Below the pieces are notes generated by a model. The model had not been told where the DNA came from. It saw only the letters and a list, made by a program, of their open reading frames with translations, and did not search any database. The translations under genes were made by a program, and so were the position numbers. This document shows positions 10,116 to 63,333 of a stretch of DNA of 64,000 nt, piece by piece (position 1 is the stretch's first letter; each line of letters opens with the position of its first letter). Source of the stretch: Kineosporia succinea (GTDB lineage: Bacteria; Actinomycetota; Actinomycetes; Actinomycetales; Kineosporiaceae). The stretch is taken from the NCBI RefSeq assembly GCF_030811555.1, contig NZ_JAUSQZ010000001.1, positions 248,001 to 312,000 of the forward strand. Reading direction: 5' to 3'.

Positions 10116-10904
10116 ATGACGGCCCAGCAGCGGCTCAACAAGGTTCTAGAGTTCGTCACCGAGCGGGGCAACGTCTCCATTGCCGATGTCGCCGAAGCAC
10201 TCGACGTCTCCCCCGCGACCGTCCGCCGCGACCTGAATCTCCTTGCGCAGCAGCGACTCGTCACCCGGACGCACGGCGGGGCGTCGGCGCTCGGGTCCGG
10301 CTACGAGCTGCCCCTGCAGTACAAGCTGGTGCGGCAGGCCGACGGCAAGGCGGCGATCGCCAAGGCGGTGGCGGCGCTGGTCTCGGCCGGCGACTCGGTG
10401 GGCCTGAACGGCGGCACCACCACCAGCGAGGTCGCACGGGTGCTCGGTTCCAGTGAGCGCCTGCTGGCCCGGGGCTCCACGCCGGGGATCACCATCGTCA
10501 CGAACGCCCTGAACATCGCCTTCGAGATGAGCGTGCGCGAGCACGTGAAGATCGTGGTCACCGGCGGTGTCCCCCGCGCGCAGTCCTACGAGCTGGTGGG
10601 CCCGCTGGTCGCCGCCTCGCTCGCCGAGTTCAGCCTCGACCTGGCCATTCTCGGCGTCGACGGCCTGACCGGACGCTTCGGCGCCACCACCATCCACGAG
10701 GGCGAGGCCGAGGCCAGCCGCCAGATCGCCACGGTCGCGCGCCGGGTGATCGTCGCCGCCGACTCCACCAAGCTCGGCCGCACCACCTTCGCCCGCATCT
10801 GCCCCCTCGAGCAGGTGGACGTGCTGGTCACCGACCAGCCCCTGCCCCCCGAACTGGCGCCGTCCCTGGAGTCGGCCGGGGTGGACGTCATCATCGCGAG
10901 CTGA
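10116..10904 (+). CDS. DeoR-family transcriptional regulator
   Basis: A 262-residue regulator. The N-terminal winged helix contains the DeoR signature (VSIADVAEALDVSPATVRRD, about residues 20-39, followed by THGGA). The C-terminal DeoR sensor domain (residues about 75-255) resembles phosphosugar isomerases: NGGTTTSEVA, IVTNALNIA, VVTGG, LGVDGLT and AADSTKLGR. The start at 10116 is supported by GGAGAGAG right upstream. It is divergent from the SIS-kinase-deacetylase-kinase-aldolase operon and most likely represses it, sensing a phosphorylated sugar intermediate. Confidence 0.92.
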   Translation: MTAQQRLNKVLEFVTERGNVSIADVAEALDVSPATVRRDLNLLAQQRLVTRTHGGASALGSGYELPLQYKLVRQADGKAAIAKAVAALVSAGDSVGLNGGTTTSEVARVLGSSERLLARGSTPGITIVTNALNIAFEMSVREHVKIVVTGGVPRAQSYELVGPLVAASLAEFSLDLAILGVDGLTGRFGATTIHEGEAEASRQIATVARRVIVAADSTKLGRTTFARICPLEQVDVLVTDQPLPPELAPSLESAGVDVIIAS

Positions 10905-10939: not shown

Positions 10940-11200
10940 GGGCCCGGCCGAGTCGTGGCCCCGGCCGATCCGCGAGGGCCCCAGCCGATCCGCGCGGGCC
11001 TGGCCAAATCGTGGGCCCCGAAGCAGCCGCGGGCGCCGGAGCTCAGCCGCGGGCGCCGGAGCTCAGCCGCGGGCGCCGGAGCTCAGCCGCGGGCGCCGGA
11101 GCTCAGCCGCGGGCGCCGGAGCTCAGCCGCGGGCGCCGGAGCTCAGCCGCGGGCGCCGGAGCTCAGCCGCGGGCGCCGGAGCTCAGCCGCGGGCGCCGGA
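10940..11200. repeat. Tandem array 1, about 20-bp unit
   Basis: The stretch 11026-11200 is a perfect 20-bp tandem repeat: nine copies of GCCGCGGGCGCCGGA spaced by GCTCA. Upstream (10940-11025) about five degraded units with the same rhythm run into it, for example GGCCCCAGCCGATCCGCG. The array starts about 35 bases after the regulator stop and ends exactly at the hairpin at 11201. Open frames through it are by-products of the repeat. Confidence 0.9.
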
Positions 11201-11245
11201 GCAGAGACACCCCCTATACCGATTCGGTATAGGGGGTGTCTCTGC
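11201..11245. repeat. 45-bp perfect hairpin, copy 1 of a dispersed hairpin family
   Basis: Perfect palindrome with 22-bp arms around one central T: GCAGAGACACCCCC, then TATACCGATTCGGTATA, then the exact complement. A related copy is at 49201-49245 with the same centre and three compensatory base-pair changes. It follows array 1 directly. No T-run follows on either strand, so a classical terminator is uncertain; it could also be a protein-binding palindrome or an RNA element. Confidence 0.9.
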
Positions 11246-11318
11246 TCCCGGCCCACTGAAGCCACGAACGGCAACCGCCGAAGCTCAGCCGTACGCACGA
11301 CAGCCGGCCAGGCCCGCC

Positions 11319-16262: not shown

Positions 16263-16299
16263 GCGTCGGGGCACCTCGGGAACCGAGGTGCCCCGACGC
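16263..16299. terminator. Strong 17-bp hairpin after sugar ABC operon
   Basis: Perfect 17-bp inverted repeat (GCGTCGGGGCACCTCGG and complement) with a GAA loop, followed by TTCTC. It sits between convergent stop codons and can serve both strands. Confidence 0.85.
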
Positions 16300-39968: not shown

Positions 39969-40003
39969 GAGGACGCGCCGGGACGGTGCCCCGGCGCGTC
40001 CTC
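39969..40003. terminator. 14-bp hairpin between convergent genes
   Basis: GAGGACGCGCCGGG pairs perfectly with CCCGGCGCGTCCTC around a 7-base loop, between the hypothetical gene and dxs. Bidirectional terminator. Confidence 0.85.
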
Positions 40004-46166: not shown

Positions 46167-48962
<2,796 letters not shown>

Positions 48963-49200: not shown

Positions 49201-49245
49201 GCAGAGGTGCCCCCCATACCGATTCGGTATAGGGGGCACCTGTGC
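49201..49245. repeat. 45-bp hairpin, copy 2 of the dispersed hairpin family
   Basis: Same build as 11201-11245: GCAGAG, variable stem, CCCCC, ATACCGATTCGGTATA centre and complement. Relative to copy 1, three neighbouring stem pairs changed on both sides (A-T to G-C, C-G to T-A, A-T to G-C), while two pairs are mismatched (49215/49231 and 49204/49242). It lies between the acnA promoter and array 4. Confidence 0.88.
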
Positions 49246-49310
49246 TCAGGCCAGCCGGCCGCGTCCGATCAGATCCGGCCGAAACGACCGGTTCCGGCCG
49301 GGCGACGACG

Positions 49311-49426
49311 CATCACATCCAGTCGGCCGGGCGGGGACGCGTCAGGTCCGGCCGATCAGGCGGTGGCGCATCAGGTCCAGCCGGACGGGCGGGAACGCAT
49401 CAGGTCCAGCCGGACGGGCGCGAACA
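49311..49426. repeat. Tandem array 4: four exact-length 29-bp units
   Basis: Units start at 49311, 49340, 49369 and 49398; the last two differ at two to three bases. Consensus begins CATCAGGTCCAGCCGGACGG. A weaker unit precedes at 49282, and a partial one continues into the end of the RNA methyltransferase gene (stop at 49429). No gene lies between this array and acnA. Confidence 0.88.
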
Positions 49427-49428
49427 CC

Positions 49429-50913
49429 TCAGTTCCGGCGGCGGGCCGGGCGCGCCGGGCGGCTCTGCGACGGACGGGCCTGGTTCGGCCGGTTCTGGCG
49501 AGGCGCGCGCTCGGTGACCACCGGCACCTCCCGGGGCTCCGGGCGTCCGTCCCTGGGCTCGAGAACCGCCACGCACTCGACGTGGTGGGTCATCGGGAAC
49601 AGGTCGAACGCCCGCAGACCGCTCAGCGCATAACCGGCGGCGTCGGCCGTGGCCAGGTCGCGGGCGAGCGCGGCCGGGTCACAGGCGACGTACACGATCA
49701 CCCGCGGGGCCAGCGCCACCATCTGCGCGATGACGTCCTTGCCGGCGCCCGAGCGCGGCGGGTCGAGCACGATCACGTCGGCTCCCCCCTCGGCCAGGGG
49801 CTGCCCCTCGGTCGCCAGACGCGGCAGCACCCGCGAGACCGACCCGGCCTCCACCCGCACCTGGTCGAGGTCGTGCAGCCCGCGCCGGGCGTCGGACGCG
49901 GCGCGGCTGTCACCCTCCACGAGCACCACCGTGCCGGTGACGCCGACCTGCTCGGCCAGACCGGCCGCGAACAGGCCCACGCCGCCGTACAGGTCGAGCG
50001 CGCGCTCGCCCGGCCGGGCCTGGGCGGCCTCCATCACGGCGTCGTGCAGCGTCTGCGCGGCGGCCGGGTGCACCTGCCAGAAGCCGGTGCCGGTGACCCG
50101 GAACGGGCGCGGCGAACCGGCGACCACGACCTCCTCCGAGACCCAGGTGCGTCCCTTGACCTGGTGCACCCCGGACTCGTCGCGCGTGGCCAGGTTCGTG
50201 CCCTGCGGCAGCTTGGGCAGGCGCAGCTTGTCACCGGTGCGCCCGGCGACCGGCTCGGCCACCACCAGCGGGCCACCGGTGGACGGGGAGATCACCTCGA
50301 CCGCGAGCGCTCCCGGCCAGCGGGCCTGGGTGACGCCCAGCTCGGCCGCGTCGGGCGTCGCGATCAGGCACTCCTTGACCGCGACCACGTCGTGCGAGCG
50401 GTGCTTGCGCAGCCCGGGACGTCCTTCGGTGTCGACCGTGAACCGCACCCGCGTGCGCCAGCCCAGCCCGTCACCGTCGGGGCCCTCCACGACCACCTCG
50501 GGCACCGGGTCGAGCTTGGCGATGCGGCGCAGCTGCTCGGTGACCACGTCGGCCTTGAGCCGGCGCTGGGCGGACAGGTCGGCGTGCTGCCAGTCGCAGC
50601 CGCCGCACAGGCCCGGACCGGCCACCGGGCAGGGCGCGGGCACCCGGTCGGGCGAGGGCTCGATCGCCTCGACCGCGTCGGCCCGCCAGAACTTGGCGTC
50701 GGGCGCGGACTCGGTGAGCCGCGCCAGCACGACCTCGCCGGGCAGCGTGTGCCGGACGAAGACCACCCGTCCGTCGTAACGCGCCACGCAGTGCCCGCCG
50801 TGCGCGACCGGGCCGATCTCGAGCTGCACGAGCTCGTCGGTGACCAGGCCCGGGCCGGCCTCGTCCCGCGCGGCCGCCGGGGTGTGGGAGTGGTGCTGGT
50901 CGCCGTCAGGCAT
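49429..50913 (-). CDS. m5U-type RNA methyltransferase with TRAM domain (TrmA/RlmD family)
   Basis: A 494-residue SAM-dependent uridine-5 methyltransferase. A TRAM RNA-binding domain (residues about 22-85, VQLEIGPVAHGGHCVAR) leads to a cysteine cluster (CPVAGPGLCGGCDWQH) that with a later Cys (KECLIA) resembles the Fe-S site of RlmD. The SAM fold has LDLYGGVGLFA and VLDPPRSGAG; the catalytic Cys is in YVACDPAALARDL. The C-terminal about 25 residues are Arg/Pro/Gln-rich. ATG at 50913 with GAAGGA; overlaps the permease stop by 8 bases. Counterpart of Rv2689c. Confidence 0.9.
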   Translation of the reverse strand: MPDGDQHHSHTPAAARDEAGPGLVTDELVQLEIGPVAHGGHCVARYDGRVVFVRHTLPGEVVLARLTESAPDAKFWRADAVEAIEPSPDRVPAPCPVAGPGLCGGCDWQHADLSAQRRLKADVVTEQLRRIAKLDPVPEVVVEGPDGDGLGWRTRVRFTVDTEGRPGLRKHRSHDVVAVKECLIATPDAAELGVTQARWPGALAVEVISPSTGGPLVVAEPVAGRTGDKLRLPKLPQGTNLATRDESGVHQVKGRTWVSEEVVVAGSPRPFRVTGTGFWQVHPAAAQTLHDAVMEAAQARPGERALDLYGGVGLFAAGLAEQVGVTGTVVLVEGDSRAASDARRGLHDLDQVRVEAGSVSRVLPRLATEGQPLAEGGADVIVLDPPRSGAGKDVIAQMVALAPRVIVYVACDPAALARDLATADAAGYALSGLRAFDLFPMTHHVECVAVLEPRDGRPEPREVPVVTERAPRQNRPNQARPSQSRPARPARRRN

Positions 50914-54470: not shown

Positions 54471-54518
54471 TGAGCTAAGGAGCAGGTGTCTGGAGAAGGA
54501 CACCTGCTCCTTAGCTCA
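54471..54518. terminator. Perfect 20-bp hairpin after the trkA pair
   Basis: TGAGCTAAGGAGCAGGTGTC pairs perfectly with its complement around TGGAGAAG. It separates the trkA operon from the convergent secreted-protein gene and is a likely bidirectional terminator. Confidence 0.88.
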
Positions 54519-63295: not shown

Positions 63296-63333
63296 CCACC
63301 TCCGACGAGGGACGCGTCCCTCGTCGGAGGTGG
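63296..63333. terminator. Perfect 38-bp palindrome between convergent genes
   Basis: CCACCTCCGACGAGGGACG and exact complement, between sepH and the phosphodiesterase gene; bidirectional terminator. Confidence 0.88.

Follow-up and report, generated by a model that had tools for sequence, protein, structure and literature searches.

Two related hairpins in intergenic space

The window, that is the whole stretch of DNA analysed (64,000 nt), corresponds to positions 248001-312000 of the single 8.07-Mb contig of its genome; this contig is probably circular, because a gene seems to span its ends. Genes were called by codon usage and not taken from annotation. The features around the two palindromes are as follows:

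10116..10904, strand +: DeoR-type regulator gene (codon-usage call; Pfam DeoRC and HTH_DeoR)
11024..11202, no strand: tandem array by hairpin 1, 20-nt unit, 8.9 copies
11198..11248, no strand: family A hairpin, copy 1, two perfectly paired 25-bp arms flanking the centre (core ATACC 11216-11220, loop GATTC 11221-11225, GGTAT 11226-11230)
46167..48962, strand -: next gene (codon-usage call); copy 2 lies ~240 nt upstream of its start
49201..49245, no strand: family A hairpin, copy 2, imperfect, with 22-bp arms that are 91% complementary (core ATACC 49216-49220, loop 49221-49225, GGTAT 49226-49230)
49294..49436, no strand: tandem array by hairpin 2, 29-nt unit, ~50 nt past the hairpin
49429..50913, strand -: tRNA/rRNA (uracil-5-)methyltransferase-like gene (codon-usage call; Pfam tRNA_U5-meth_tr)

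The sequence-only reading had described palindromes at 11201-11245 and 49201-49245 that share their centre, lie in intergenic space beside tandem arrays and have no T-run, and all of this was found again: both copies are between called genes, each next to its array (11024-11202 and 49294-49436), and neither is followed by a T-run. The common 15-nt centre, ATACCGATTCGGTAT, is identical in both copies; with up to two mismatches allowed it occurs nowhere else in the window (their reverse strands apart), and it was absent from 100 dinucleotide shuffles of the window. The compensatory difference reported at positions 7-9 (ACA/TGT versus GTG/CAC) was confirmed, but pairing in copy 2 is not perfect, a C being opposed to an A beside the core (CCATACC versus GGTATAG) and a G to a G near the base. 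Copy 1 is faced by the 3' end of the DeoR-type gene, ~290 nt upstream, and copy 2 by that of the methyltransferase-like gene, ~180 nt apart. The last unit of the first array overlaps the left foot of hairpin 1. A scan of the window against Rfam gave no family at gathering scores.

More strong hairpins stand between convergent genes of the window, at 16263-16299, 39969-40003, 54471-54518 and 63296-63333. A GGACG...CGTCC stem is common to several hairpins of the genus and perhaps marks a genus-wide class.

A dispersed family with a constant core and covarying arms

A covariance model (R1) was built from 37 of 40 copies, leaving out L034, L044 and the duplicate L039; its top-scoring genome match is copy 1 (E 2.1e-17), which was among the sequences used to build it. 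The search returned at least 40 sites in the genome of the window (family A), a lower bound since the model scored 150 of 1303 first-look candidates. One site, 160400, aligns over positions 13-37 only (E 0.0018), and another, 92957, has an E of 5e-5. Nearly all 40 were scored on both strands, as palindromes should be. L038 and L039 are the two products of one duplication and so are not independent copies. What was proposed from two copies, a dispersed family with compensatory stem changes around an identical centre, therefore extends to 40 sites, and its reality is established. Eight of the 40 copies fall in one 330-kb stretch (G000:C1:21261-325734; P 0.025 versus uniform placement).

The architecture consists of a C-rich arm, TATACC-N5-GGTATA and a G-rich arm, together with a variable, mostly paired outer stem. 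The core is almost invariant and the spacer fixed at 5 nt (38 of 38 non-background copies checked can be read as a TATACC-like arm, 5 nt of loop and a GGTATA-like arm), while the loop varies freely, with 27 types in 40 copies after orientation, and the outer arms drift. The flanks beyond the stem show no conservation, and the predicted fold of the stem is very stable. In the same genome, CTATACC-N4-GGGTATAG with up to three mismatches gave 49 and 50 matches on the two strands; the reversed control gave 12 and 10. The arm ACCCCCTATACC barely exists apart from hairpins: 66 of its 69 genome matches with at most one mismatch, and 30 of 30 exact ones, lie inside them.

Pairing was assessed on the 37 copies. 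Standard pairs occupied 85% of the pair cells, a value that dropped to 36-57% when the partner was slid by 1-3 columns. Cells changed on both sides numbered 87, versus 36.7 in shuffles, and for three of the five measures none of the 500 shuffles reached the observed covariation. The outer-stem pairs are strongly skewed: 132 have A in the 5' arm opposite T in the 3' arm, and 4 have the reverse.

Selection on RNA pairing would be expected to tolerate G-U more than A-C on the sense strand. The 18 co-directional copies gave 15:14, which excludes only a strong bias, and orientation by the loop gave 37:29 (P 0.39). That selection at the RNA level preserves the pairing is not demonstrated; with no sense-strand preference for G-U, covariation alone does not prove an RNA role.

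Position relative to genes

None of the 40 copies is inside a called gene. Seventeen are in convergent spacers, 18 in co-directional ones and five in divergent ones. Taking 504 kb of the genome as a base, where convergent spacers make up 6% of intergenic length and 14% of spacers, the convergent class was expected to hold 2.5 copies by length or ~5.5 by number of spacers, and the divergent class 10.2. At least one gene end faces 35 of the copies; the five in divergent spacers have no facing stop codon. The intergenic, 3'-end placement is clear: 18 copies follow a stop codon at a distance of at most 65 nt (random intergenic positions would give 7.0), and two are at most 65 nt from a gene start (11.1 expected, or 6.8 within their own spacers). 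Random placement within their own spacers already gives 14.7 copies close to a stop (P 0.10), so that much of the 3' bias is a matter of choice of spacer.

Tandem arrays accompany 27 of the 40 copies, versus 11.4 expected for spacers of equal length, perhaps as a result of replication slippage near the hairpins. The nearest genes, scanned for 20 of the 40 copies, are ordinary, share no theme and include no transposase. A link between hairpin orientation and gene direction was rejected (8 same, 10 opposite).

No U-tract directly follows the stem. Among 52 gene-side tails TTT was found once and TTTT never, whereas 10 of 51 tails of other hairpins of this genome contain TTT; the mean number of T in the 9-nt tail was 1.75 versus 2.67 for those hairpins. 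Counting instead from the end of the inner 11-bp stem changes the picture: the next 9 nt hold 3.8 T on the + strand and 4.1 on the - strand, for a background of 1.45. This U-enriched stretch belongs to the outer stem. Given the A-T skew of that stem, A could plausibly be a hairpin working in both directions, its 3' half being U-rich with interruptions.

Sister genomes use other hairpins, partly at the same gene ends

The comparison set comprised the genome of the window (G000) and five sister genomes of the genus (G001-G005), which are drafts in which hairpins may be lost. The exact A core is absent from the five, so that the conservation in related strains which the sequence-only reading had set as a test was not seen; the combination it had considered fatal, two copies only and no conservation in relatives, did not arise, the genome having far more than two. 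Three weak model matches in relatives (L068-L070) proved to be other hairpins with unrelated sequence; one of them stands before the end of a sigma-factor-like gene. Matches to CCC-N-CTATRCC-N5-GGYATAG-N-GGG number 28 on each strand of the genome of the window, and there are none in the 296 further genomes searched within the order. In the GTDB collection (from which the own genome may be excluded) it was found in five lone stretches from unrelated taxa and in one viral contig; these outside matches are isolated and chance-like. A literature search with partial coverage of subscription papers returned no description of A, nor of hairpin standards that differ between lineages of this group. Family A is a real, lineage-private family of dispersed hairpins.

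De novo searches for intergenic hairpins gave 43 in 504 kb of the genome of the window and 5-9 in 84-89 kb of each sister genome. Two further families emerged:

Family B, GCTTTCGATTATCGATAATCGAAAGC: 40 sites in G000 with up to three mismatches, 26 of them exact (copies L094:5441, L096:788, L097:13940, L105:2026, L106:7633, L107:8687 and L167-L181)
Family D, CGTGATCATGC...GCATGATCACG: elements L182-L241, L139, L141 and others in G003 and G005

B has a perfect core of 26 nt, and its outer arms vary but are mostly complementary; the copies looked at are in the middle of long spacers, and none was found in the five relatives. In D, the ends and the centre are conserved and the middle varies freely while remaining complementary. 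With a middle of 8-38 nt, 49 D sites were counted in G005, 37 in G003, 4 in G002, 3 in G000, 1 in G001 and 0 in G004; longer forms measure 81-83 nt. In G003 the D palindromes amount to ~15 per 200 kb. Among 73 elements, 29 are in convergent spacers, 34 in co-directional and 3 in divergent ones, and 7 are at an edge or intragenic (3 inside a called gene). D is close to stop codons: 59 of 63 are at most 65 nt from the facing one, with a median of 13, or about 13-15 nt. Its tails are A-rich (per 9 nt, 2.9 A on average and 1.2 T), therefore unfit as U-tracts, which favours end protection.

In the relatives, D or another strong hairpin occurs in part at the very places where G000 has A. Five A sites were compared with their orthologous spacers. 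In G003 four of these (L001, L002, L003 and L012) contain D, and L024, where the neighbouring genes abut, has no hairpin. D is also present in G005 at L001 and, seen from the D side, in both G003 and G005 at L005. The four out of five in G003 compare with 4 of 48 other spacers (P 0.001). For all relatives together, a strong hairpin or a D was found in 10 of 21 spacers orthologous to A sites versus 29 of 226 others (P 0.0003). When convergent spacers only are considered there is no excess (7 of 12 versus 16 of 40; P 0.33). Gene ends that attract hairpins in one species thus tend to attract them in others, part of the effect being simply convergence. Different hairpin sets in sister species, partly at the same gene ends, suggest punctuation marks for gene reading.

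Paired changes in the arms of D

G003 and G005 are alignable over 189 kb at 92.5%. Out of 14 mappable D sites of G003, 10 have a D counterpart in G005 when judged by pattern, and alignment adds at least one more. Same-site pairs were compared position by position (16 of 19, three being too different in length): both arms differ at 21 pair positions, a single arm at 40 and neither at 345. The 21 both-arm changes, versus 4.1 expected under independence, are Watson-Crick in both genomes for 18, and several form runs of three pairs. The 12 pairs of equal length gave 10 both-arm changes for 1.5 expected. As with A, there was no sense-strand preference for G-U over A-C in co-directional genes (13:17).

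Template switching in hairpin-forming DNA, by which several bases can undergo compensatory change in one step, has been proposed for RNA genes in the available part of one report (PMC8794818). The paired arm changes of D are the pattern to be expected if such switching takes place during replication. By analogy it may also operate in A, which has no same-site relative.

How copies spread

One copy of A was spread through plain duplication of a gene together with its hairpin: L038:1421-2745 and L039:1421-2745 form a 1325-bp duplication, 99.2% identical, with its two members 1.2 Mb apart. The gene concerned looks like an alpha-hydroxy-acid dehydrogenase. A search for the Y1 (RAYT-type) transposase, PF01797, returned no match at E <= 0.001 in the genome of the window (98.1% complete), while the control gave matches in 5 of 14 named genomes. 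No target duplication was seen in the few sites aligned, the flanks of which are scrambled.

Interpretation

Our best reading is that the A copies are bidirectional 3'-end hairpins, serving as terminators or as protectors of transcript ends, that have spread as a REP-like repeat. We give a probability of roughly 0.55 to the complete statement, i.e. that A is a lineage-private dispersed palindromic repeat which acts as a two-way 3'-end hairpin and whose arms owe their lasting complementarity mostly to template switching. Whichever side a transcript comes from, the C5-TATACC/GGTATA-G5 stem would form in it. On both strands the outer stem is U/C-rich in its 3' half (~4 T in 9), which may provide a weak, interrupted U-tract and, after intrinsic pausing or after Rho action and trimming, the folded hairpin would shield the RNA 3' end from exonucleases. 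Template switching between the arms during replication would copy one arm onto the other in blocks and so keep them complementary. Several features count against this reading: within their own spacers the copies are hardly enriched near stop codons, the tails of A are poor in T-runs and those of D A-rich, G-U is not favoured on the sense strand, hairpins at A sites in relatives are not in excess among convergent spacers, five copies have no facing stop codon, and the very constant core exceeds what a terminator needs.

That constancy, combined with drifting outer arms, speaks for an alternative in which A, B and D are REP- or MITE-like mobile palindromes with a core-recognising transposase, gene ends being the least harmful landing places and effects on transcripts incidental. 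Convergent spacers and the 3' ends of genes are known locations of REP families. The bursts of private copies (A and B in G000 only, D abundant in G003 and G005 and at 0-4 sites in the other four genomes) point the same way, as does L024, where the genes abut or nearly so in G001, G003 and G005 and are separated in G000 by a 173-nt spacer containing A (compactness was judged without base-by-base alignment). Against it stand the lack of a Y1 transposase match in the genome and of target duplications in the few sites aligned, the lack of an autonomous relative or of any transposase among the 20 neighbours scanned, and the fact that most D sites of G003 are common to G005, so that D does not jump often. 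We consider this explanation rather unlikely.

It is improbable that TATACC-N5-GGTATA is primarily the DNA site of a dimeric nucleoid protein or regulator, with the stem as a by-product. A near-invariant core, a fixed spacer and a free loop are what such a site would show, and the core presumably resembles the operators of CsoR-type copper repressors; the L018 copy, in a divergent spacer, is 483 nt from a CsoR-family gene (L018:722-1003). The starts of the two genes are nevertheless 256 and 483 nt away from this copy, copies close to 5' ends are rarer than by chance, the neighbours scanned have no common theme, and paired changes outside the core would be useless to a dimer. The CsoR operator idea was discarded, there being one CsoR-family neighbour only. 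Still less probable is a structured RNA (a small RNA or regulatory element) under selection for RNA pairing, which would agree with the stable fold and with covariation above shuffled and slid controls but not with the unbiased G-U counts, the variable loop and the lack of an Rfam match in the window. Among the roles listed in the sequence-only reading, a terminator class or a small mobile hairpin fits best, and probably both apply; a dimer site alone is insufficient, because it leaves the paired changes outside the core unexplained.

Returning to the two-way 3'-end hairpin, a wider proposal, which we put forward as tentative and on balance doubtful, is that each of the sister species of one actinobacterial genus has its own gene-end hairpin standard, swapped wholesale (A and B versus D) at partly the same gene ends, copied without a RAYT and edited in blocks by mutual templating of the arms; covariation, in general regarded as proving that an RNA is functional, would then chiefly reflect the way DNA palindromes mutate. 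If our reading is right, paired changes in repeats can stem from replication and not from RNA selection, and the 3'-end hairpins of a GC-rich actinobacterium would be recognisable by sequence, with a turnover traceable at orthologous gene ends. The same-site D pairs of two close genomes make the template-switch idea directly testable.

Comparison with known systems

Like canonical intrinsic terminators, A is a GC-rich hairpin near gene 3' ends (18 of 40 within 65 nt); unlike them, it lacks a U-tract directly after the stem. It is closer in this respect to the U-less 3'-end hairpins of GC-rich bacteria. The available parts of one report count, for Streptomyces clavuligerus, 353 structured transcript ends without a U-tract versus 182 with one (PMC8269248), and both this report and a second source, also seen in part, interpret such ends either as I-shaped terminators or as the result of Rho termination followed by trimming to a hairpin (PMC8269248, PMC13289151). 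These are likewise GC-rich, located past the stop codon and devoid of a clear U-tract, but no sequence family is described in the accessible portions of either paper, whereas here 40 copies have one private core and sister genomes use another.

REP elements and REPINs are, according to the parts available of two papers, short palindromes with many intergenic copies, specific to a lineage and with several families per genome (PMC3733652, PMC3116915). A is likewise a short palindromic repeat with many intergenic copies. It differs by its symmetric stems of at least 20 bp with paired block changes in the arms, by the absence, over 65 oriented columns, of the one-sided GTAG or CGTC end tag of REPs, and by the lack of a detectable Y1 transposase in its genome. 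Finally, the template-switch renewal proposed for RNA genes, as far as the accessible text of that work goes (PMC8794818), concerns a different setting from the dispersed intergenic palindromes of family D, most copies of which serve no known RNA gene, but the two have in common the multi-base paired changes of the arms.
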